Assembly (NCBI GenBank): GCA_020523885.1 | Contig: JAJAPY010000006.1 | Coordinates: 62,001 to 126,000 of the forward strand | Source of the DNA: Candidatus Liberimonas magnetica | GTDB lineage: Bacteria; Elusimicrobiota; Endomicrobiia; Endomicrobiales; JAFGIL01 | Length of the DNA: 64,000 bases | Direction of reading: 5' to 3' | Shown here: positions 2,308-18,600 of the stretch, piece after piece | Numbering within the stretch: the first letter of the stretch is position 1 | How the letters are laid out: each line of letters begins with the position of its first letter | Notes under the pieces: model-generated | Told to the model about the DNA's origin: nothing | What the model saw: the letters and a program-made list of their open reading frames with translations, nothing else | The model's database searches: none | Position numbers and translations under genes: made by a program

Positions 2308-3573
2308 TCAAGGGGTAAATTTAGAGAGTTCATTGATACCCAGAGATTTTTCTATTTCTTCAACTTGACTGGCTACCTTTTTAAACCCGCCTTTTCCAAA
2401 AACTATTTCTTCTTCTTTCTCAAATTGTTCTGCCAATCCTGCATACTCATCAGGCGGAACGATGTTACGAAACGCCGGGAATAAAACAGTGTCTTCCTGG
2501 GCTTTATGCGGCCGGTACATATTAATAAAGGCACGCAGAGAACTTGCCAATCTGTTTTTATCCGGCGCATTTTGTTGAGCCTTTATAGCATAGGTTATTT
2601 TACGCCCTGCTTTATGCTGTTCTTCAAGGGCAGCTATCATATAAGCAAGATTGTTTGTTTTACGGAACCTGTCAAAAATATATTTTTCCTCAAGAACTTC
2701 ATGGTAACCCTGGATAAAACTGCTGACAATATCGGTTGATTGGGAAAGAGGTTCAGCAGGAAACACCTCATTATTATTTATGCGCTTTATTATCTCTTCA
2801 TAAATGAGCAGCAGCCGGCTGATAACGCCATGTTCACGCATGAGGTCCTCATTGGCTGAAATCAAAGTTCCTGTTTCCTCATTCGCTTTATCGAATCTTT
2901 TTTTGACTATAGCCCAATTCAGTTTCTTAAAGAAGCTCGCAATATATTTACCCCGGTCTATCTGGTAATCTGTCATATAAGCGTGTTCAAAGACATCCAG
3001 CACCGCCAGCGGCTTTGCAGCTGCGATTTGCCCTGTATCGTGTTCAGTGACCCATACATTTATAAGTTTCCCTGTACGCGGCTCCAGGCAGAGTATGGCC
3101 CAGCCTATCCCGCGCATTGCTGCAGTTGAAGTAAAATCCTTTTTCCAAAGCTCAAAACTTCCAAAACTCTCAGTTATATTCTCATACAAAGCGCTGCCTT
3201 CTTCCGGGCCGCCCGTCCCGCCCAGGTTTTCAAAATAATATTCATGCAGCAGCGCTCCGTTAAGTTCCCATCCCAGCCTGCGTTTTAATTCTGCGTATTC
3301 CGGAGTGTTATCCTTATTATTGGCAGCTAGAATGCCAAGCTTTTCTAAAATGGAATTAGTGTTTTTTACATACCCCTGGTAAAGCTTAAAGTGATTGTTC
3401 AACAGGGTATCGCTGAAACCTTCCATACCGAGTAAGACGGAAAAATCTTTCGCCTGAATAGAAGCCGCCGAATCAGCAGGCACTGTTTTAATACGGGGAG
3501 GCACTACTGCCAGCGCGCCCGTCCCTAAGAAAATGATTAGCAAAGCAGGTATAATTTTCCTATATTCTTTCAT
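2308..3573 (-). CDS. Secreted Fe/Mn superoxide dismutase fused to a hemerythrin domain
   Basis: A 421-residue two-domain protein. Residues 1-22 form a signal peptide, so it acts outside the cytoplasm. Residues about 43-225 are an iron/manganese superoxide dismutase with all four metal ligands: H61, H110 (LLHEYYFENL), D193 and H197 (DVFEHAYMTDY). Residues about 243-370 form a four-helix hemerythrin with a full diiron set: H248, H291/E295 (HxxxE), H320 and H356/D361 (HxxxxD). The dismutase would turn superoxide to peroxide and oxygen, and the hemerythrin could bind or sense the oxygen, or shield the metal. It ends an operon PRTase-glutaredoxin-TrxB-this gene, 24 bases after trxB. Each domain call is firm; how they cooperate is inference. 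Confidence 0.88.
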   Translation of the reverse strand: MKEYRKIIPALLIIFLGTGALAVVPPRIKTVPADSAASIQAKDFSVLLGMEGFSDTLLNNHFKLYQGYVKNTNSILEKLGILAANNKDNTPEYAELKRRLGWELNGALLHEYYFENLGGTGGPEEGSALYENITESFGSFELWKKDFTSTAAMRGIGWAILCLEPRTGKLINVWVTEHDTGQIAAAKPLAVLDVFEHAYMTDYQIDRGKYIASFFKKLNWAIVKKRFDKANEETGTLISANEDLMREHGVISRLLLIYEEIIKRINNNEVFPAEPLSQSTDIVSSFIQGYHEVLEEKYIFDRFRKTNNLAYMIAALEEQHKAGRKITYAIKAQQNAPDKNRLASSLRAFINMYRPHKAQEDTVLFPAFRNIVPPDEYAGLAEQFEKEEEIVFGKGGFKKVASQVEEIEKSLGINELSKFTP

Positions 3574-3596
3574 CCTAATCCTCCAGCCAGATTTTT

Positions 3597-4502
3597 TTAG
3601 TTGGCGCTGTTTATATAAGAAAAAGCTGCCAGGCTTGCTTTTGCGCCTTCCCCGCAGGCGACGATTATCTGTTTTGCCGGCACATCGGTTACATCCCCGG
3701 CGGCAAAAATACCCGGCACACTTGTCCTTGACCTGCAGTCAACTAATATCTCGTTTTTGTCATTCTTATTCACTATCTTAATAAAATCAGAGGAAGGCTC
3801 CGCCCCGACTTCAACAAAGACTCCTGCGACGCTTATATCCAGCCGGCTGCCGCCATGTTTTATTTTAACGCCCTTTACGAACCTGTCGCCGTATATTTCT
3901 TCCATAGTTGAACCTCTGTAAACCTCTACCCTGGAATTATTTATAACTTTATCCATTATGCCGGGGTCAGCTTTAAACGAGTCTTCTTTTTCAATTACGT
4001 AAACCTTGTTTGCTACATTTGAAAGCTGGACAACGGCGTCAAGCCCTGAATTTCCGCCTCCGACAACCGCGACATCCTTGCCCGCAAACAATGGAGCGTC
4101 ACAGGTTGCGCAGTAGGCAACCCCTTTATTCCTGAATTCGTCTTCACCGGGTATGCCGAGTTTTTTGTGCGCCCTGCCAGTTGCTATGATTACTGTTTTT
4201 GTTTTATAATTAGCCTTGCCGGTTTTAATAGAGAAATGCCCCTCGTTGCCTTTTACGGCAGATTCTACTATTTCATTTTCTTGAATCTTTATTCTGTTCA
4301 GGTTTAACTGTTCTGTAAATTTATCTACAAGCTGCCGGCCCGTTACAAGCATATAGCCGGTATAATTTTCAATATTATTGGTCCAGAGAGTCTGGCCTCC
4401 AAGATCTTTTGAAATGACGATAAAATTCATTCGTTTCCTTGCCGCATATATGCCTGCGGTTATCCCGGCAGGGCCTGCTCCTAGAATGATAAGATCATAC
4501 AT
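3597..4502 (-). CDS. trxB: Thioredoxin reductase
   Basis: A 301-residue low-molecular-weight thioredoxin reductase that passes electrons from NADPH through FAD to a thioredoxin or glutaredoxin. The FAD-binding GAGPAG is at residues 8-13, the NAD(P)-site GGGNSG at 148-153, and the redox-active CATC at C131/C134, with the FAD-contacting GIFAAGDVTD near residue 270. The length is normal for the family. It follows the glutaredoxin gene by 11 bases and precedes the secreted dismutase-hemerythrin gene by 23, so the three form one oxidative-stress transcription unit. The adjacent CxxC glutaredoxin is its likely partner. Confidence 0.95.
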   Translation of the reverse strand: MYDLIILGAGPAGITAGIYAARKRMNFIVISKDLGGQTLWTNNIENYTGYMLVTGRQLVDKFTEQLNLNRIKIQENEIVESAVKGNEGHFSIKTGKANYKTKTVIIATGRAHKKLGIPGEDEFRNKGVAYCATCDAPLFAGKDVAVVGGGNSGLDAVVQLSNVANKVYVIEKEDSFKADPGIMDKVINNSRVEVYRGSTMEEIYGDRFVKGVKIKHGGSRLDISVAGVFVEVGAEPSSDFIKIVNKNDKNEILVDCRSRTSVPGIFAAGDVTDVPAKQIIVACGEGAKASLAAFSYINSAN

Positions 4503-4513
4503 TTATTTATCCT

Positions 4514-4750
4514 CTATTTAATATTTAATTCTTTCCAAAGTTCGGTTTCATTGAAACCAACAATAATCCTGCCGTCTATATCAATAACAGGCACAGCCAT
4601 CTCCCCCGATTTTTCAATCATTTCCCGGGCTTTCTGGCTGTCTTTGCTTACATCTATATTTTCATATTCAATTTTATTTTCTGTTAAAAACTTCTTTAAC
4701 GAATTACATGCCGGGCAACTGGGAGTTGAATAAATTTTTATATTAGGCAT
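4514..4750 (-). CDS. Glutaredoxin-like redoxin (NrdH/CPAC type)
   Basis: A 78-residue cytosolic redoxin with the active site CPAC at C12/C15 (STPSCPACNS) and the cis-Pro region AVPVIDIDG of the glutaredoxin fold, ending in the GFNETEL segment typical of small glutaredoxin-like proteins. With thioredoxin reductase directly downstream and no glutathione genes in view, it probably behaves like NrdH: reduced by TrxB rather than by glutathione. The family is certain; the reductant is inferred from gene order. Confidence 0.9.
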   Translation of the reverse strand: MPNIKIYSTPSCPACNSLKKFLTENKIEYENIDVSKDSQKAREMIEKSGEMAVPVIDIDGRIIVGFNETELWKELNIK

Positions 4751-4806
4751 ATTTTGTCCTTATCCTTTGCTGGAGGCGTTTCCCCGATACTCTGGCATAC
4801 GGCCCT

Positions 4807-5460
4807 TTATTTTTTTATCAGCCTGGCGTCCTGCAGTGTCTCAACGACCTGCGCATCAGTCAGATCGTAAAACTCTTCATAAAACGCTGCGACTGCAAAC
4901 GGAAGGGCGCTGCTGACCTGGACTGAGATAACCTTATCAACTTCTTCGGATATCACGGACAGTGAGTCCCTGTGTGCCACAGGCGTTGCCGCTATTATTT
5001 CTCCCGCGCCGCGTTTCCTGGCAAAACGCACAGCCCCAAGCATTGTATAACCAGTGGCCAGCCCGTCGTCCGTTATAACGACCGTGCGCTTTTCAAGGCC
5101 GGGGAACGGGCGTTTTCCCCTGTAAATCCTGTCTCTTCTAAGCACTTCCCTGTAAACCTCATTAACTATTCCGTCTATTTCTTCCCTGTTCACATACCCC
5201 TGATCAAGAAAATAGTCATTCAATATTACTTCTTTATCAAGGTTCACTACGCCAAAACCCGTCTGATCATTTGAGGGAATAGGAAGCTTCCTTACAGTTA
5301 TAGGTTCAAGCGGACATTTGAGATAATCTGCGACAGGGTAACCAACTCCTATCCCGCCTCTTGGTATGCCTAAGACTAAGGGATCGGTTAGCTTAGCGCC
5401 TGATTTCCCGATTTTATCGGCTAATTTCCTGCCTGCATCTATCCTGTTTTTGAATAACAT
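4807..5460 (-). CDS. Phosphoribosyltransferase-fold protein
   Basis: A PRTase-domain protein of about 217 residues, starting at the ATG at 5460, which has a GAGGGG ribosome site about 5 bases upstream; a longer frame from a TTG at 5478 would swallow that site. The PRPP-binding signature ITDDGLATGYTM lies near residues 129-140, and the beginning LGIPRGGIGVG is typical of the stand-alone PRTases found in stress and dienelactone-hydrolase operons of bacteria. The substrate base is unknown. It is the first gene of the unit that continues with glutaredoxin, trxB and the dismutase-hemerythrin fusion (56-base gap to the next gene). Confidence 0.82.
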   Translation of the reverse strand: MLFKNRIDAGRKLADKIGKSGAKLTDPLVLGIPRGGIGVGYPVADYLKCPLEPITVRKLPIPSNDQTGFGVVNLDKEVILNDYFLDQGYVNREEIDGIVNEVYREVLRRDRIYRGKRPFPGLEKRTVVITDDGLATGYTMLGAVRFARKRGAGEIIAATPVAHRDSLSVISEEVDKVISVQVSSALPFAVAAFYEEFYDLTDAQVVETLQDARLIKK

Positions 5461-5645
5461 TTTTAGCCCCTCGATCAACCTTCGCGGCTGCAGCCCCCGC
5501 CCTTAACAAGTCACAAAATACCGCGTATGTTCTTGCCCAATCCCGGCAAAACCCAAAGCACCGTACGTTATTCCGCAAAAATGAGAATAGTGACGGCGCT
5601 TTACAGTTTCTCCCCCCAAGCCACAGAAAAACATAGTTTTTTGCA

Positions 5646-6047
5646 TTATTTCGCAGATACAGGTTTTTCTGATTCCATAAGGCATTCTTTCCATTCTTTC
5701 GGGTTATTCATTTTCCATTCGTTGATTTGCCTCATAATTGATTCTTTTGTATCCATCATTTCAGGCATATTCTTCATTCCCTTCATCCCGCCCCTATCCA
5801 TGGAACCATGCATTTTTCCCAGAGGCCCCATCTGGCACATACCGGCCATCGAGCCCATTTTACCATGATGCCCGCATGAGAGGCCGAACACTAAAACAAG
5901 CACGGCAAAAACATAAAGTATAATAGCCATAACTTTCCCAAAACCTGAAAGGCCTTTCGATGTATTTTCGTGCATTGAAGTCCAGGAACAAATATATCCC
6001 AAAGCTACCAGTACAACACTCAACAAAACTGCATGAAATATAAACAT
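5646..6047 (-). CDS. Small membrane protein with Met/His-rich tail
   Basis: A 133-residue protein. The start at 6047 is chosen because GGAGG lies 7 bases upstream (GGAGGAATTACA-ATG); the upstream in-frame codon at 6071 would begin before that site. Two hydrophobic segments (about residues 3-20 and 38-56) are followed by a tail with CGHHGKMGSMAGMCQMG and further Gly-Met repeats, then a charged amphipathic end. Met- and His-rich segments of this kind usually bind copper or silver ions. I recognise no family. It sits between the stress operon and the ferritin-like gene, which fits a metal-handling role, but this is inference. Confidence 0.6.
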   Translation of the reverse strand: MFIFHAVLLSVVLVALGYICSWTSMHENTSKGLSGFGKVMAIILYVFAVLVLVFGLSCGHHGKMGSMAGMCQMGPLGKMHGSMDRGGMKGMKNMPEMMDTKESIMRQINEWKMNNPKEWKECLMESEKPVSAK

Positions 6048-6147
6048 TGTAATTCCTCCATTATAGCCCAAAGTCTAACGTTCTAAGTCTTGGGCCGTAC
6101 CTCGGCCTGTTGACTTAGCACATGGGACTTAGGACTGATTTACTTAG

Positions 6148-6588
6148 TTATATCCCTAGTAAAACAGAAAGCTCAGCAACATGTTCCTGCTCATCAACTA
6201 TCACATGGCGGATATCGTGTTCCAGGGTCTCAAACTCATACTGCAGTTCTTTTTTACCGTCAACCACCTTCTGGTAGATCTGTTTATAGAAGTCAATGGC
6301 ATCCTTTTCCCCTTTCAGGTTAACTTTAAGTATGTCTTTAAGTTCCCTGGCTAAGTGAGTTTCGGCAAGGCCCATCGAAGGTTCTCCTCCGAGGTAGTTG
6401 CCTATAAGGTTCCTGAATTTTTCTTCGTGGCTTTTTTCATCAGAGGCTATTTCATTCAACCTTTCAATTAATTTCTCTGCGTTCTCTCCTTTGATTAACT
6501 CAGCATGGGACAGGTACTGTATCCTTGCAGCATGCTCCAGTTCCAGGGCTTTGTTCAACATTTTAATCAACTCTTCTTTAATGTTCAT
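6148..6588 (-). CDS. Ferritin-like diiron protein (bacterioferritin/rubrerythrin-like)
   Basis: A 146-residue four-helix protein. The ATG at 6588 is chosen for its GGAGGT site 7 bases upstream. Diiron ligand patterns appear in all helices: E in LNKALELEHAARIQY, ExxH-like in ASDEKSHEEKF, E in LKGEKDAIDFYKQ and ExxH in DEQEHVAEL. Such proteins store iron or use peroxide to oxidise iron. There is no rubredoxin-like extension, so it is not a full rubrerythrin. It lies between a metal-binding membrane protein and a superoxide reductase, consistent with iron and oxygen defence. Exact subfamily uncertain. Confidence 0.85.
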   Translation of the reverse strand: MNIKEELIKMLNKALELEHAARIQYLSHAELIKGENAEKLIERLNEIASDEKSHEEKFRNLIGNYLGGEPSMGLAETHLARELKDILKVNLKGEKDAIDFYKQIYQKVVDGKKELQYEFETLEHDIRHVIVDEQEHVAELSVLLGI

Positions 6589-6634
6589 TTTTTTACCTCC
6601 GTTATTTATCACTTTTTTGTTTTGTTTTTTATGG

Positions 6635-6659
6635 ATTCCGGCTTACTACTTGCCGGAAT
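6635..6659. repeat. Small palindromic repeat (GGATTCCGGC...GCCGGAATGAC type)
   Basis: ATTCCGGC (6635-6642) and GCCGGAAT (6652-6659) are perfect arms around a 9-base loop, flanked by ATGG and GACA. The same frame (ATGGATTCC ... GGAATGACA) returns at 42166-42247, so this is a dispersed intergenic repeat. Confidence 0.55.
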
Positions 6660-6724
6660 GACATCACTTTTTGCTTTCATCTTTTTTCATTGATCTTTGG
6701 ACATTATTGTTTAATTTATACTGC

Positions 6725-7168
6725 TTATAAATCCACTTCGCTCATCCATGCTCCGTGGATATTGCATTTCTCGATCGTCGTAAACTTGCCGTTGTCTACC
6801 TTTAAATGAAGCCCTATAGCGGGGTTCATCTTTTCAGGCGACAAGTAGGTCCTCGAAATATATTTTTTGTCTATATAGCAGTCGATATACATTATGAAAT
6901 GCTCCGGCAGCATCGGGTGAGTTATTTCGCCTACCTTTATATTGACATCCGTGCAGCCGTCAGGTATTAGTTTACACTGCTTCTTAACGATTATCTGCGG
7001 TATATGCTTCCTGTTTGTTTCGAGTTTCTCCGTTTTATCGCTCGGCTCTACTATGGCATCTGCTTTTTCATCGAATGATTTCTTAGGAGCGCTGCAAACA
7101 GGGCATTTCTCCGGAGCACTCCCGTCAATAGCTATAAACCCGCATACTGAACACACAATTCCTTTCAT
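6725..7168 (-). CDS. Superoxide reductase with N-terminal rubredoxin-like domain (desulfoferrodoxin-like)
   Basis: A 147-residue cytosolic enzyme that reduces superoxide to peroxide without making oxygen. The N-terminal 30 residues carry a rubredoxin-like knuckle with C6/C9 (CSVC) and C22/C25 (CPVC). The C-terminal domain holds the five ligands of the catalytic iron: H55 (RKHIPQI), H84 and H90 (THPMLPEHF), C135 and H138 (CNIHGAW), preceded by the usual Lys before the first His. The N-terminal module resembles rubredoxin or rubrerythrin zinc ribbons rather than the desulforedoxin CxxCG knuckle. Electrons could come from the rubredoxin at 12194-12364. The assignment is firm. Confidence 0.9.
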   Translation of the reverse strand: MKGIVCSVCGFIAIDGSAPEKCPVCSAPKKSFDEKADAIVEPSDKTEKLETNRKHIPQIIVKKQCKLIPDGCTDVNIKVGEITHPMLPEHFIMYIDCYIDKKYISRTYLSPEKMNPAIGLHLKVDNGKFTTIEKCNIHGAWMSEVDL

Positions 7169-8510: not shown

Positions 8511-9305
8511 TTATTTAAATATCTCGTTAAAAAAGGATTTCATGGCATCCCACGAACGCTCATCTGCCTGTTTGTTGTAAGCAGCACCCGTTGAAGGGTC
8601 GTCACCTGCCTCAGAGTTTGTAAACCTGTGTACCGCGTTGGCATATATATTCAGCTCCCAGTCTACACCGGCGTCCTTCATTTCTTTCATAAAAGATAGA
8701 AGCTGCTCATTTGACACATAGGGGTCATTTGCTCCGTGAAGAACAAGCACCTTTCCTTTGATTGCTTTTGCATTTAAGGGGTCGGGAGTGTCTAAATTAC
8801 CGTGAAAACTTACAACCCCGTTAACCTCCGCCCCGCTGCGCGCAAGTTCAAGCGCCACCCCTCCTCCGAAACAATAACCTAGCGCAGCTGTTTTTGTTAT
8901 ATCAGTAATCTTTTGTTTTTTCAGTTCTTCAAGCCCAGCCAGGGCCCGCTCCCTCATTAGTTTCCTGTCTGAGCGGTAAATTCCAGCCTGTTTTGCCGAT
9001 TCCTCATTAGTTTTCGGCCTTATGCCTTTACCGTAAATATCCGCGCAGAACGCCACGTACCCAAGTTCAGCCAGCTGCACAGCTCTTTTCTGAACATAGG
9101 AACCTTGGCCGTTCCATTCATGAACTATAAGCACACCCGGCTGCTTGCCCTTAAGATTATCATCATAAGCCAAAAAACCCTCAAGAGGCACCTTCCCGCT
9201 TTTATAATCGATGTTACGTGTTATGATTTTTGCCAAAACATCTGTTTGTAATGCAAAGGCCAAAACAAGCAAAACGAAAACTGAACTTATGAAATCTTTA
9301 ACCAT
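8511..9305 (-). CDS. Secreted dienelactone hydrolase-family protein
   Basis: A 264-residue alpha/beta hydrolase with the Cys-Asp-His triad of dienelactone hydrolases: nucleophile in GYCFGGG, Asp in GANDPYVS and His in AVHRFT. The oxyanion-side motif VHEWNG is also present. The ATG at 9305 is chosen because GGAGG lies just upstream; the frame extends to 9380 without a ribosome site. The new N-terminus is a signal peptide of 25 residues ending in DVLA, so the enzyme is periplasmic. Natural substrate unknown; periplasmic homologues are frequent in metal and oxygen stress loci. Its promoter at 9376-9436 carries the shared motif. Confidence 0.88.
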   Translation of the reverse strand: MVKDFISSVFVLLVLAFALQTDVLAKIITRNIDYKSGKVPLEGFLAYDDNLKGKQPGVLIVHEWNGQGSYVQKRAVQLAELGYVAFCADIYGKGIRPKTNEESAKQAGIYRSDRKLMRERALAGLEELKKQKITDITKTAALGYCFGGGVALELARSGAEVNGVVSFHGNLDTPDPLNAKAIKGKVLVLHGANDPYVSNEQLLSFMKEMKDAGVDWELNIYANAVHRFTNSEAGDDPSTGAAYNKQADERSWDAMKSFFNEIFK

Positions 9306-9375
9306 AGCGCCTCCAAAACATAAATTTATTTCCACGGTTTTCCGTAGATTTTGGAATTTTACTATTTCCAGAATA

Positions 9376-9436
9376 ATCATACAAAATGCGTTCAGGCATT
9401 TGAATGCCTTGGTTCCGTATTTTACTGACTTATTTT
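9376..9436 (-). promoter_or_regulatory. Shared-motif promoter B (dienelactone hydrolase)
   Basis: AAAATAAGTCAG at 9436-9425 (a G lies one base before), 9 bases, GAA at 9415-9413, CATTC, -35 TTCAAA (9404-9399), 17 bases, -10 TATGAT (9381-9376). The predicted leader is about 64 bases to the ATG at 9305. Divergent from promoter K, so this 280-base gap holds two motif promoters back to back. Confidence 0.68.
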
Positions 9437-9498
9437 CTGTTTAAAATAAATCAGGTTATAATTCCAAAAAGATAGTATATTTTGGCAAAAACTAAGTG

Positions 9499-9559
9499 GA
9501 AAAACATCAGCAAATAACGGAACTATCCGATTCCTTAGCACAAGCTTAAGTAGTAAAAT
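9499..9559 (+). promoter_or_regulatory. Shared-motif promoter K (radical SAM/type III PKS operon)
   Basis: GAAAAACATCAG at 9499-9510, 9 bases, GAA at 9520-9522, ATTC, -35 TTCCTT (9531-9536), 17 bases, -10 TAAAAT (9554-9559). Start of transcription would fall near 9566, 20 bases before the ATG at 9586, leaving room for the GAGAGG ribosome site. Confidence 0.65.
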
Positions 9560-9585
9560 AAGTTATGAGAGGACAACCTTAATTA

Positions 9586-11013
9586 ATGAATATACTTATT
9601 ATAAACTCTAATAATACCCGAAAGCCAGTGCCTGTAATGCCTATCGGAGCATGTAGAGTGGCTGAAGCTGCCGAACAGGCAGGGCATACGGTCAGGTTCC
9701 TTGACCTTATGTTTGAAAAGGATATAGCCTCCGCCGTTCGAAATGAGGTAAAGAAGCACCTTCCTGGTTTAATAGGGATTTCCGTAAGGAACATAGACAA
9801 TAACTCTATGCCCAACCCCGTTTCCTGCTATAAGCAGGTTCAAGAAATAACAGAAGCGATCCGCTCGGTTTCCTGCGCACCTGTAATACTTGGCGGAACA
9901 GCTGTAGGGATAATGCCGGAAGCCTATCTTAAGCTTACAGAAGCGGAAGGCGCAGTTTCCGGCCCTGGTGAATTTGTTTTTCCTGAAATAATTCAGAGCT
10001 TTGAAGACAACGTGCCAATAGATGAAATCAAAGGGCTTATCACGCTAAAGCATACCTCTGCAGAAGAAAAATATGATAATAAGAATATCTCTGCCTCAGT
10101 TTATAGAACACCGGATTTCAAGAAATGGCTGAATATGAACACCTACACATCCCATCTTGCAAGCATTCCGGTACAAACAAAACAGGGATGCCCGTTCAAA
10201 TGTATATATTGTACCTATGGGATGTGCGAAGGAAACCGTTTCGATGCAGCTCCGGTTGAAAAGGTAATTGAACGTATAAAACTCCTATCTTTGTCAGGTT
10301 TAAAAGATATAGAATTCACTGATGCAGTTTTTAATTACCCGTACGAACATGCCTTTGAGCTCTGCGAGGGCCTTATCAAAGCACATACCGGTGCGCGGTT
10401 TCAAACTTACAACCTTAACCCGGGGTTCATGGATAAAACCCTTCTTGACGTTATGGAAAAAGCAGGGTTTTATGGAATAGGAATATCTGCAGAAAGCGGT
10501 TCAAACAGAGTCCTTAGAGGTTTGCAAAAAAATTACACTTTAGAGGATCTAACCAATGCCGCAGAAGCGCTTCAAGAAAGCAAGCTGCCGTGTTTCTGGA
10601 TGTTTATTCTGGGAGGGCCGAAAGAAACAGAAGAAAGCATTGATGAAACATTAGAGTTTGCACAAAAATATGTAAAATCTAAAGACGTGGCGTTACTAAG
10701 CCTGGGATTGCGCATCTATCCTGGCACAGGCCTTGAAGCTTTGGCGCGCGAAGAAGGGCTTTTAACAGCAAAACCGGAAGAAATGCTTGAACCACTCACA
10801 TATATCTCTCCTCTTATTGAACAGAAGATTTTGGCTAACAGAATAGAAAGAGCTATACATACTCACCTGAACTATATAGATTCAGGTTTCCTGCAGTCCC
10901 CTTTGCTAAATACCCTGTTGCCTTTAGTTCATTTAACCGGTTTAAGCAGGCCTCTATGGAAACACACTAATTTATTAAGGCGTTCTTTACGCATGATAGG
11001 AACTCGCTTATGA
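9586..11013 (+). CDS. B12-binding-domain radical SAM enzyme coupled to a type III PKS
   Basis: A 475-residue radical SAM protein. Residues 1-140 have the Rossmann-like cobalamin-binding fold seen in B12-dependent radical SAM enzymes (MNILIINSNN, LIGISVRN, VILGGTAVG). No clear DxHxxG cobalamin motif is visible. The [4Fe-4S] motif CxxxCxxC is C202, C206, C209 (GCPFKCIYC), and GISAESGS with FILGGP are further family motifs. Typical reactions are methylation or rearrangement at unreactive carbons. Its stop overlaps the start of the polyketide synthase gene (ATGA), so the two are made together and this enzyme probably modifies the polyketide or its starter. The exact reaction is unknown. Confidence 0.85.
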   Translation: MNILIINSNNTRKPVPVMPIGACRVAEAAEQAGHTVRFLDLMFEKDIASAVRNEVKKHLPGLIGISVRNIDNNSMPNPVSCYKQVQEITEAIRSVSCAPVILGGTAVGIMPEAYLKLTEAEGAVSGPGEFVFPEIIQSFEDNVPIDEIKGLITLKHTSAEEKYDNKNISASVYRTPDFKKWLNMNTYTSHLASIPVQTKQGCPFKCIYCTYGMCEGNRFDAAPVEKVIERIKLLSLSGLKDIEFTDAVFNYPYEHAFELCEGLIKAHTGARFQTYNLNPGFMDKTLLDVMEKAGFYGIGISAESGSNRVLRGLQKNYTLEDLTNAAEALQESKLPCFWMFILGGPKETEESIDETLEFAQKYVKSKDVALLSLGLRIYPGTGLEALAREEGLLTAKPEEMLEPLTYISPLIEQKILANRIERAIHTHLNYIDSGFLQSPLLNTLLPLVHLTGLSRPLWKHTNLLRRSLRMIGTRL

Positions 11014-12068
11014 ATACAGCCGGTATGCGCGTAGCATCTATCGCCTTGGCAACACCCCAGCTAATGATCCAGCAGGAAGAAGCTGCCGAGTTTATCCTTT
11101 CAAATTACTCTAACAGGCTTAAGAAAAAAAGCGTAGAGATAGCGCGTAAGGTATTCGGCCACCCAAGCATTAAGCAAAGAAGTTTCGCCTTTAACGACCC
11201 ATCCTGTCTTATAGATGAAAAACCGGATTCAAAAATCGAACGCTTTACACGTTATTCAGTAGAACTCTCAGCCGAAGCGGCAAATAAAGCCCTAAAAGAA
11301 GCCGGGCTAAAACCGGAAGAACTTTCTGCAGTTGTGGTTAATACCTGTACAGGCTATATATGCCCGGGTATTTCAACGTATCTAATAGAAAAGCTCGGTT
11401 TGCGCCAAGATATTAAAGCCTACGACCTTGTAGGAAGCGGATGCGGCAGGGCTATACCGAACCTGCAATTATGCGGCGCAATCCTAAAGGAAGATAACGA
11501 TGGTATTATTTTAAGTATTTCAACTGAAATTTGCAGCAGCACGTTTCAAATGGGAAATGACCTAAGTTTGATAGTTTCTAATGCGCTGTTTGCTGACGGC
11601 GCTGCAGCTATGGTTTTCTGGAACAGGCCAAAAGGCCTTGCTGTAAAAGGCTCTGCAAGTTATTTTGAACCTCGCTACCGCGAAAATATAAGATTTATAC
11701 ACCAGGATGGGCAATTGCATAATCATCTTTCCAAAAACCTTCCTCAAATAGCCGCCCCCATCATAAGGCAGGCCATTGATAACCTTTTGAAAAAACATGG
11801 CTTAGGCCGGGATAACATTTCGGGCTGGGCTCTGCACCCGGGTGGAGAGAATGTCATAAATGCGCTAAAAACAGAATTAGGCCTATCGGAAGAGCGCCTT
11901 GAACCGACTCGTTATGTCCTTAAAAACTTCGGCAACCTGTCATCTCCGACTGTCTGGTTCGTTATGAAAAACATAGTTGAAAAAGGCCTTAGAAAAGGGG
12001 AATGGTATCTTGCGGCGGCTTTTGGCGCGGGGTTTTCAGTGCATACCTGCCTTTTTCAGGCAGAATAA
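11010..12068 (+). CDS. Type III polyketide synthase (chalcone synthase-like)
   Basis: A 352-residue homodimeric ketosynthase that condenses malonyl-CoA units onto an acyl-CoA starter and cyclises the product. The catalytic triad is complete: C145 (VGSGCGRAIPN), H276 (WALHPGG) and N309 (LKNFGNLSSP). The C-terminal GFGPG loop of plant enzymes appears as AFGAGFSVHT. Length is typical of bacterial members making alkylpyrones, alkylresorcinols or phloroglucinols. Its ATG overlaps the radical SAM stop. A possible terminator follows at 12072. Class is sure; the starter and ring-closure type cannot be read from the sequence. Confidence 0.9.
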   Translation: MNTAGMRVASIALATPQLMIQQEEAAEFILSNYSNRLKKKSVEIARKVFGHPSIKQRSFAFNDPSCLIDEKPDSKIERFTRYSVELSAEAANKALKEAGLKPEELSAVVVNTCTGYICPGISTYLIEKLGLRQDIKAYDLVGSGCGRAIPNLQLCGAILKEDNDGIILSISTEICSSTFQMGNDLSLIVSNALFADGAAAMVFWNRPKGLAVKGSASYFEPRYRENIRFIHQDGQLHNHLSKNLPQIAAPIIRQAIDNLLKKHGLGRDNISGWALHPGGENVINALKTELGLSEERLEPTRYVLKNFGNLSSPTVWFVMKNIVEKGLRKGEWYLAAAFGAGFSVHTCLFQAE

Positions 12069-12193: not shown

Positions 12194-12364
12194 TTATTTT
12201 TCTTCGGACAATCTTTTATAATATTCTTTGTTTACCCCGCACACAGGGCATGACCAGTCATCAGGCAAGTCATTAAACCTGGTTCCTCTCCTTACAGCGT
12301 TCTTGGGGTCGCCTTTTTCTTCATCGTAAACATGGTTGCAGGCAAGGCACTTCCGCTTCTTCAT
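12194..12364 (-). CDS. Rubredoxin
   Basis: A 56-residue small electron carrier with a single Fe(SCys)4 site: CLAC at C6/C9 and CPVC at C39/C42. The intervening YDEEKGDP and GTRFNDLPDDWSCP lines are the classic rubredoxin core. The start ATG at 12364 has an AGGA site 9 bases upstream, and the gene lies 13 bases after the DUF4912 gene. It is a plausible electron donor to the superoxide reductase at 6725-7168 and belongs to the response regulator-DUF4912-rubredoxin operon driven from 13454-13514. Identity is certain, partner inferred. Confidence 0.95.
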   Translation of the reverse strand: MKKRKCLACNHVYDEEKGDPKNAVRRGTRFNDLPDDWSCPVCGVNKEYYKRLSEEK

Positions 12365-17568: not shown

Positions 17569-18600
17569 TTATTTAAATAATTTATCATATTGCCCGAAGC
17601 CTTCTTTTCCAAGGTCTTCCTTTGCTATGAACCTGAGCGATGCGGAGTTTATACAGTATCTTAAACCTCCGGGCTTAGGGCCGTCGTCAAAAACAAAACC
17701 AAGATGAGAACCCGCCTGCCTGCTCTGCACTTCAATCCTTTTTGCCCCAAGAGCCGATACCCTGTTTTCTACTATATTTAACGGTTCAAGAGGTTTTGAA
17801 AAACTCGGCCAGCCTGTCTTTGCATCAAATTTATCTAAAGAACTGAAAAGAGGCTCACCTGAGACTATATCAACATATAGGCCGTCTTTGTAGTTGTCCC
17901 AGTATTCATTATCAAAAGCCGGCTCAGTTTCACATTCCTGGGTAACCTTATATTGAAGGGGAGTCAGAAACTTTTTTAACTCCGGGGTTGGAAAGGTCTT
18001 ACAGTTCTTGCCTCTTCCCCAGGACTTTTTTATAAAACTTTCCCTTCCTGAGCTAAACCTGTAATATCTGTACCTGAGCGGGTTTTTTCTGCAATAACCC
18101 TGCTGCTTTTCTTCTGCTTTAAAAAACTTGCCTGCAGGCACTATCTGTGTTACTATCGGTTTGTAAAATATTCTTGTTATCTCAATGTCTTTTTTTGTTT
18201 TTTCAGCAGCTTTCTTTTGTTCATCGTTATGATAATAGATAGCTGAAGTGTAGTGCTGGCCCCTGTCATAGAACTGTCCGCCGGCATCAGTAGGGTCTAT
18301 CTCCATCCAAAACTCCCGAAGCAGGGTTTTGTAGTTCGTTTTTTCGCCATCAAATATCACCTCTATACCTTCCCTGTAACCTTCTTTGCCGGATTTCACT
18401 TCGGTATAAGTAAGGTTTTTGTCATTGTCAACTATATATCCTGATTTAACTTCAACTACACCTGGCAGTTTGCTGAAAGTGCATTCTAAACACCAGAAGC
18501 CGCCGCCGGCAAAAGTGGCTTTTTGCAGGTTTTGTTTAGGCTTGCCTGCCTTGAAAGCGAATACCGGCATAAAGACAAAAAAAATACCGCTAAGGGACAT
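17569..18600 (-). CDS. msrAB: Bifunctional methionine sulfoxide reductase MsrAB, exported
   Basis: A 343-residue fusion that repairs both sulfoxide stereoisomers of oxidised methionine. An N-terminal hydrophobic stretch (residues 1-17) suggests export or membrane anchoring. MsrA (about 25-190) has the catalytic C37 in GGFWCLE and the HYTSAIYYH line. MsrB (about 205-335) has GWPSF, the [18 protein letters not shown] line and catalytic C316 in RYCINSASL. The MsrB part lacks the CxxC zinc pairs (SGEPLF instead of CgxPLF), as in many fused enzymes. Thiol reductant could come from the periplasmic TlpA/CcdA relays at 42-52 kb. Part of an oxidative-stress unit with VOC and DUF1499 genes. Confidence 0.93.

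Follow-up and report, generated by a model that had tools for sequence, protein, structure and literature searches.

An overlapping gene pair for a B12-binding radical SAM protein and a type III polyketide synthase is conserved across several bacterial phyla

In Candidatus Liberimonas magnetica, the gene of a B12-binding radical SAM protein (rSAM) runs with a stop/start overlap into that of a type III polyketide synthase (PKS). The same pair was found in several phyla, and its conservation together with the matching trees of both proteins argues for a self-contained, co-inherited module. We infer, with a confidence slightly short of even, that the two genes form a pathway to a C-methylated lipid of the long-chain alkylresorcinol (or pyrone) type, in which the B12 enzyme would displace a methyltransferase.

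Results

We analysed a 64,000-nucleotide stretch of the genome, referred to here as the window (Table 1). The first-pass annotation had described the overlap of the rSAM stop with the PKS start, an intact catalytic triad and the lack of a following tailoring gene, and all three descriptions hold: the next features downstream of the PKS lie on the minus strand and encode a 56-aa rubredoxin (12194-12364) and a DUF4912 protein. Upstream of the 205-bp gap lies a divergent dienelactone-hydrolase-family gene (8511-9380). This gene and a polyprenyl synthase gene (1223-2035) were considered as pathway partners and dropped, as both lie on the other strand and neither link is conserved.

Table 1. Features of the gene pair in the window and U32-like proteins at related loci
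Feature	Position	Strand	Basis
Divergent intergenic region, 205 bp; presumed site of the pair's promoter	9381..9585	.	no specific motif found
B12-binding radical SAM protein (rSAM), 475 aa	9586..11013	+	intact ORF; PF02310 (B12-binding) and PF04055 (Radical_SAM)
Arg68 codon, equivalent of TsrM Arg69	9787..9789	+	alignment; invariant 44/44; PMC8992657
CX3CX2C [4Fe-4S] motif, C202/C206/C209	10189..10212	+	sequence; invariant 44/44
ATGA stop/start overlap of the rSAM and PKS genes, 4 nt	11010..11013	+	sequence
Type III polyketide synthase (PKS), 352 aa	11010..12068	+	intact ORF; PF08392/PF00195/PF02797
Catalytic Cys145 codon of PKS	11442..11444	+	invariant 59/59
Catalytic His276 codon of PKS	11835..11837	+	invariant 59/59
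Catalytic Asn309 codon of PKS	11934..11936	+	invariant 59/59
U32-like proteins	L092:4752-5969, L097:4637-5953, L125:4729-5946, L127:397-1623, L130:2765-3982, L089:1-1104		

The pair had also been credited with a regulon promoter of its own, for which the promoter scan and the repeat and dyad searches gave nothing specific. Promoter-like sites were no more frequent in the window than in shuffled sequences, and the scan placed none on the plus strand within the divergent gap. A near-match search with 22-mers and counts of 8-mers and dyads revealed no motif common to the upstream region of the pair and the other upstream regions of the window. As a separate observation, oxidative-stress genes surround the pair on the minus strand (2308-7168, 12194-12364 and 17569-18600). 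They encode a Fe/Mn superoxide dismutase-hemerythrin fusion, a thioredoxin-reductase-like protein, a ferritin/rubrerythrin-like protein, a desulfoferrodoxin with a rubredoxin-like domain, a rubredoxin and an MsrA-MsrB fusion. This neighbourhood is not conserved and is at most a faint indication that the product might be a membrane phenol with a protective role.

Among 295 genomes of the phylum Elusimicrobiota, relatives of the PKS with 45-55% identity were detected in ten genomes besides that of the window. An rSAM (41-44% identity) lies directly upstream in nine of them, and in the tenth (G279) the contig end falls inside an open reading frame that clusters with the rSAM. Nine of the 10 complete Elusimicrobiota loci retain the ATGA overlap, while the remaining one reads TAATG. 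A wider scan of 84,980 species genomes returned 135 PKS relatives, the best 80 of which were kept; these loci were selected by two PKS motifs and stem mostly from metagenome bins. Within this set, 78 loci had usable flanks, and 56 of these carried the rSAM directly upstream on the same strand (33 with a gap of at most 60 bp), against one with the rSAM on the opposite strand. Twelve loci had the PKS without any rSAM. Hosts of the pair are anammox Planctomycetota (Brocadia, Jettenia, Loosdrechtia and Scalindua), Nitrospirota, Desulfuromonadales/Geobacteraceae, Nitrospinota and Elusimicrobiota, and the cultivated isolate Pelotalea chapellei has the pair. A conserved third gene was mostly missing from the pair loci, where other neighbours were common to close relatives only. 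The recurrence of the overlap and the frequency of the pair are thus beyond chance and no local accident. The search for the pair in other genomes had been proposed as a check, with lack of conservation as the refuting outcome; what it returned was a widely conserved two-gene module.

Comparison of rSAM and PKS distances over the 56 pairs gave a mirror-tree correlation of r = 0.87, which none of 2,000 permutations reached and part of which is due to shared host ancestry. Since the pair genomes are related, counts over pair loci are not independent of each other. All trees were quick searches with SH-aLRT support values. Among the open-access papers searched, we found none that describes a pair of this kind, with type III PKS, radical SAM and cobalamin together, and this scope makes the absence no proof of novelty.

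The AF2 model of the PKS has a pLDDT of 93.6, and its best fold matches are PKS11 (Z 49.2) followed by Ectocarpus PKS1, CylI and PKS18 (Z 46-47). The triad, Pfam domains above cut-off and the fold identify a type III PKS, while assignment to DpgA, the 3,5-dihydroxyphenylacetyl-CoA synthase (NF042429), was rejected (150.8 bits versus a cut-off of 425). The structures nearest by sequence or fold include the mycobacterial long-chain alkylpyrone synthases PKS18 and PKS11, which share the fold (Z 46-49), the triad and small tunnel residues with the pair PKS but only 23-28% identity; we know of no rSAM partner for either enzyme in mycobacteria. T114, C118 and C175 of the PKS align with T144, A148 and C205 of PKS18, which open its long acyl tunnel (1TEE being the C205F mutant). 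Among 59 relatives the first two are invariant and the third is kept in 58, and chalcone synthase has a methionine (Met137) at the position of C118. The open-tunnel residues of long-chain alkylresorcinol/alkylpyrone synthases are therefore present as judged by alignment. Because these residues are PKS18-like, a long-chain starter is likely, and we predict its use with moderate confidence. We hold with equally moderate confidence that the product is of the alkylresorcinol type, a class within which sequence does not separate resorcinol from pyrone.

The rSAM combines the CX3CX2C motif with an N-terminal B12-binding Rossmann domain, as expected for cobalamin-dependent radical SAM enzymes. Its best NCBIfam model was TIGR04072 (rSAM_ladder_B12, lipid biosynthesis) with 294.5 bits, below the cut-off of 360, and other pair rSAMs tested scored 249-334 bits. 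BzaD and TsrM ranked second and third, far above BchE (50 bits). PKS-linked rSAMs, including diverged ones from Geomonas, form one clade (support 99) apart from TIGR04072 proper; by phylogeny and model score, the pair rSAM belongs to a subfamily that is sister to the ladderane-cluster enzymes. Both share the B12-binding plus radical SAM layout and a lipid context, but TIGR04072 enzymes are partnered with type II fatty acid synthesis and the pair rSAM with a type III PKS. Jettenia and Pelotalea encode a TIGR04072-proper protein (417 and 384 bits) alongside the pair rSAM. In Jettenia its gene sits among those for ketosynthases, an ACP, an AMP-ligase and an amine-oxidase/desaturase-like oxidoreductase, whereas no fatty-acid genes were found near most pair loci. 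Ladderane synthesis by the pair was accordingly rejected as first choice, the Jettenia TIGR04072-proper gene being a different gene in a fatty-acid cluster. Anammox bacteria make ladderanes, and in Brocadia pituitae and Scalindua (G295 and G296), at E <= 1e-40, no TIGR04072 protein exceeded the cut-off and only the pair rSAM and weaker relatives matched. A Nitrospirota bin (G302, the genome of locus L071) holds several rSAMs of the family on contigs C9, C44 and C60, two of them (L147 and L153) about 44% identical to that of the window and one (L141) of a lineage apart; the family may thus include paralogues that work with other partners.

The AlphaFold model of the rSAM (pLDDT 90.2) is closest to TsrM among solved structures (Z 33.8 over 463 residues, 3.0 A, 23% identity), followed by AprD4 (Z 27.8) and then MgmA and OxsB. 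TsrM is a tryptophan C2-methylase, in which Arg69 lies under the cobalt, blocks its lower face and helps nucleophilic attack on methylcobalamin (PMC8992657, PMC13331322), while Glu273 keeps SAM off the cluster and makes the enzyme non-radical. The CX3CX2C motif is common to TsrM and the rSAM and the arginine is kept in all 44 relatives, but Glu273 corresponds to Val248 of the rSAM (42 of 44; Val or Ile in the alignment), and context and substrate differ from those of TsrM. With Arg68 conserved and Glu273 replaced, the enzyme appears to have a TsrM-like cobalt site and a SAM site open to ordinary radical chemistry. The modification may be radical, as suggested in the first-pass annotation, or polar: the nearest structure is a non-radical B12 methylase, though one whose Glu273 is not conserved here.

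A sister PKS clade in Elusimicrobiota (families f18 and f20, 37-39% identity) adjoins a class I UbiE-like methyltransferase, and no rSAM orthologue was found in its genomes. Genome-wide, none of the 10 Elusimicrobiota and none of the 6 anammox/Nitrospirota pair genomes tested encodes this methyltransferase family, whereas 5 of 5 Elusimicrobiota genomes that have the PKS without the rSAM do; in Pelotalea a member lies about 25 kb from the pair. In the window's genome, neither this PKS-linked family nor one FAD type of the clade had a relative, and the FAD-type gene had none in 10 of 11 pair genomes tested. Loci of the clade without rSAM contain a methyltransferase and an FAD hydroxylase in Methylococcus, a gammaproteobacterium and a Nitrospirota bin, or a methyltransferase and a U32-like Fe-S protein in Chitinivibrionales. 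Overall, a methyltransferase lies near the PKS in 2 of 57 pair loci versus 5 of 12 loci without rSAM (Fisher p = 0.001). Once Geomonas-type loci are counted as rSAM loci, strict exclusivity over all loci weakens and is not upheld (11/66 versus 5/12, p = 0.06).

The two enzymes are not strictly interchangeable, since all nine Geomonas clusters combine a diverged rSAM of the clade with the methyltransferase and L107 and L112 hold rSAM, methyltransferase and FAD hydroxylase together. As these loci keep both enzymes, the rSAM may perform a second or different step. In the PKS tree, loci with methyltransferase and FAD hydroxylase branch twice from within the rSAM-PKS loci, once as the Methylococcus type (support 97) and once as L084, which groups next to the anammox sequences (support 85), and the exchange thus probably happened more than once.

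Larger clusters around the same PKS were observed in Geomonas, Citrifermentans and Geobacter, some of them named strains (L092:394-8480; also L097, L108, L109, L118, L120, L121, L122 and L131). They encode the diverged B12 rSAM, a family-less 283-aa protein, a UbiE-like methyltransferase, a U32-like protein and, as a second B12 rSAM, a divergent BchE-like protein, and look like an oxygen-independent route to a hydroxylated or methylated phenol or quinone. The U32-like proteins share CX3C...CX3C in 6 of 6 sequences and an additional CX4CX2CX2C in all 5 complete ones, a hint that they may hold two Fe-S clusters. They are not catalogued UbiU/UbiV proteins, as no NCBIfam model matched the one tested (L092). 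In two planctomycete loci (L117 and L126), the PKS of this clade has no rSAM; the cluster there includes FabF-like ketosynthases and a 690-aa protein without a family assignment.

Discussion

The pair can be read as two translationally coupled genes that make up a lipid pathway. The PKS would load a long-chain fatty acyl starter (as CoA or ACP thioester) into a PKS18-like tunnel, extend it with malonyl-CoA and cyclise the chain to a 5-alkylresorcinol or alkylpyrone. The TsrM/BzaD-like rSAM would then move a methyl group from methylcobalamin to a ring carbon or to the nascent polyketide, replacing, without oxygen, the class I SAM methyltransferase of the sister clusters. Pairing, co-evolution, the TsrM-like structure, the tunnel residues and the complementary methyltransferase distribution count for this pathway; the best score, with TIGR04072, points instead to fatty-acid/ladderane-type clusters. 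Displacement is the simplest reading because the methyltransferase stands in for the rSAM, and we consider the chances of C-methylation by the rSAM about even.

Compact operons of similar make-up are known. In planctomycete methyltransferase-oxidoreductase-type III PKS operons, the PKS alone yields C15/C17 alkylresorcinols, and the products gain a C-methyl group when the methyltransferase and the oxidoreductase are co-expressed (PMC10896814). Like the hidABC genes for hierridin, these operons join a type III PKS with modifying genes and are spread among phyla (PMC10896814), a likeness to the pair in operon make-up. Both have a methyltransferase and an FAD oxidoreductase, whereas neither lies beside the PKS in the window, where the B12 rSAM is the sole partner. 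Of the earlier proposal of a two-gene pathway to an alkylresorcinol-like quinone or membrane lipid, the conserved module and the membrane lipid survive, the latter as the product class best supported by the PKS18-like tunnel and the resemblance to methyltransferase-FAD-PKS operons. The quinone does not: only relatives with additional hydroxylase genes, of the FAD or U32-like type, point to one.

Kinship to TIGR04072 would also fit chain chemistry by the rSAM. The enzyme would then act on the alkyl chain or acyl starter, by methylation at an unactivated carbon (branching), desaturation or ring formation, as proposed for paralogues in ladderane/polyunsaturated-hydrocarbon clusters, and the product would be a chain-modified alkylresorcinol or pyrone. 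The 'lipid biosynthesis' model as best match, the fatty-acid setting of the Jettenia paralogue and Val248 in place of the TsrM glutamate agree with this. Moreover, the nucleophilicity of a resorcinol ring suffices for an ordinary methyltransferase to act on it, and ring methylation thus needs neither B12 chemistry nor a radical. We nevertheless regard chain modification as unlikely, with the clade separate from TIGR04072 proper, fatty-acid genes missing near most pair loci and the complementary distribution of the UbiE-like methyltransferase fitting methylation better.

Less probable still, the rSAM could be an oxygen-independent, BchE-like oxidase or hydroxylase that converts the PKS phenol to a hydroquinone or quinone and replaces the FAD hydroxylase of aerobic relatives. 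Related loci do add FAD hydroxylases, U32-like Fe-S proteins (PF01136, 4-8 conserved Cys) or a BchE-like second B12 rSAM, and nearly all pair genomes tested lack the FAD-type gene. But the pair rSAM fits BzaD and TsrM far better than BchE, L107 and L112 keep it together with the FAD hydroxylase, Geomonas keeps its relative together with the U32-like gene, and those clusters encode their BchE-like protein in a gene of its own. That the two enzymes are co-inherited and co-regulated while the rSAM modifies another lipid or cofactor and the PKS makes an ordinary alkylresorcinol or pyrone is very unlikely: the pair's reaction is deduced from sequence and the PKS does occur without any rSAM, but coupling and co-evolution across several phyla speak against it, and so does the fact that a single PKS clade has recruited different neighbours (rSAM, methyltransferase or hydroxylase) as alternatives.

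The best-known type III PKS lipids, alkylresorcinols and the corresponding quinones, come from aerobes that use SAM methyltransferases and oxygen-dependent hydroxylases. Here, several phyla of mostly anaerobic or microaerophilic bacteria have retained a minimal B12-rSAM/PKS pair, which predicts an unreported lipid in ecologically important organisms, including several anammox genera. Because a B12 enzyme has been swapped in for a methyltransferase beside one PKS clade, an entire, so far uncharacterised rSAM subfamily can be tested directly for its function, and some hosts are cultivated (Pelotalea chapellei for the pair; Geomonas and Citrifermentans for the larger cluster). It is possible, though we doubt it, that the rSAM performs chemistry on the PKS product or starter unlike that of any known type III PKS pathway, such as chain cyclisation, chain branching or oxygen-independent oxidation of the ring. 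The outcome would be an anaerobic phenolic lipid of a new class, with a membrane or redox role. If true, this phenolic/redox lipid class would be common to anammox bacteria, Nitrospirota, Geobacter relatives and Elusimicrobiota.
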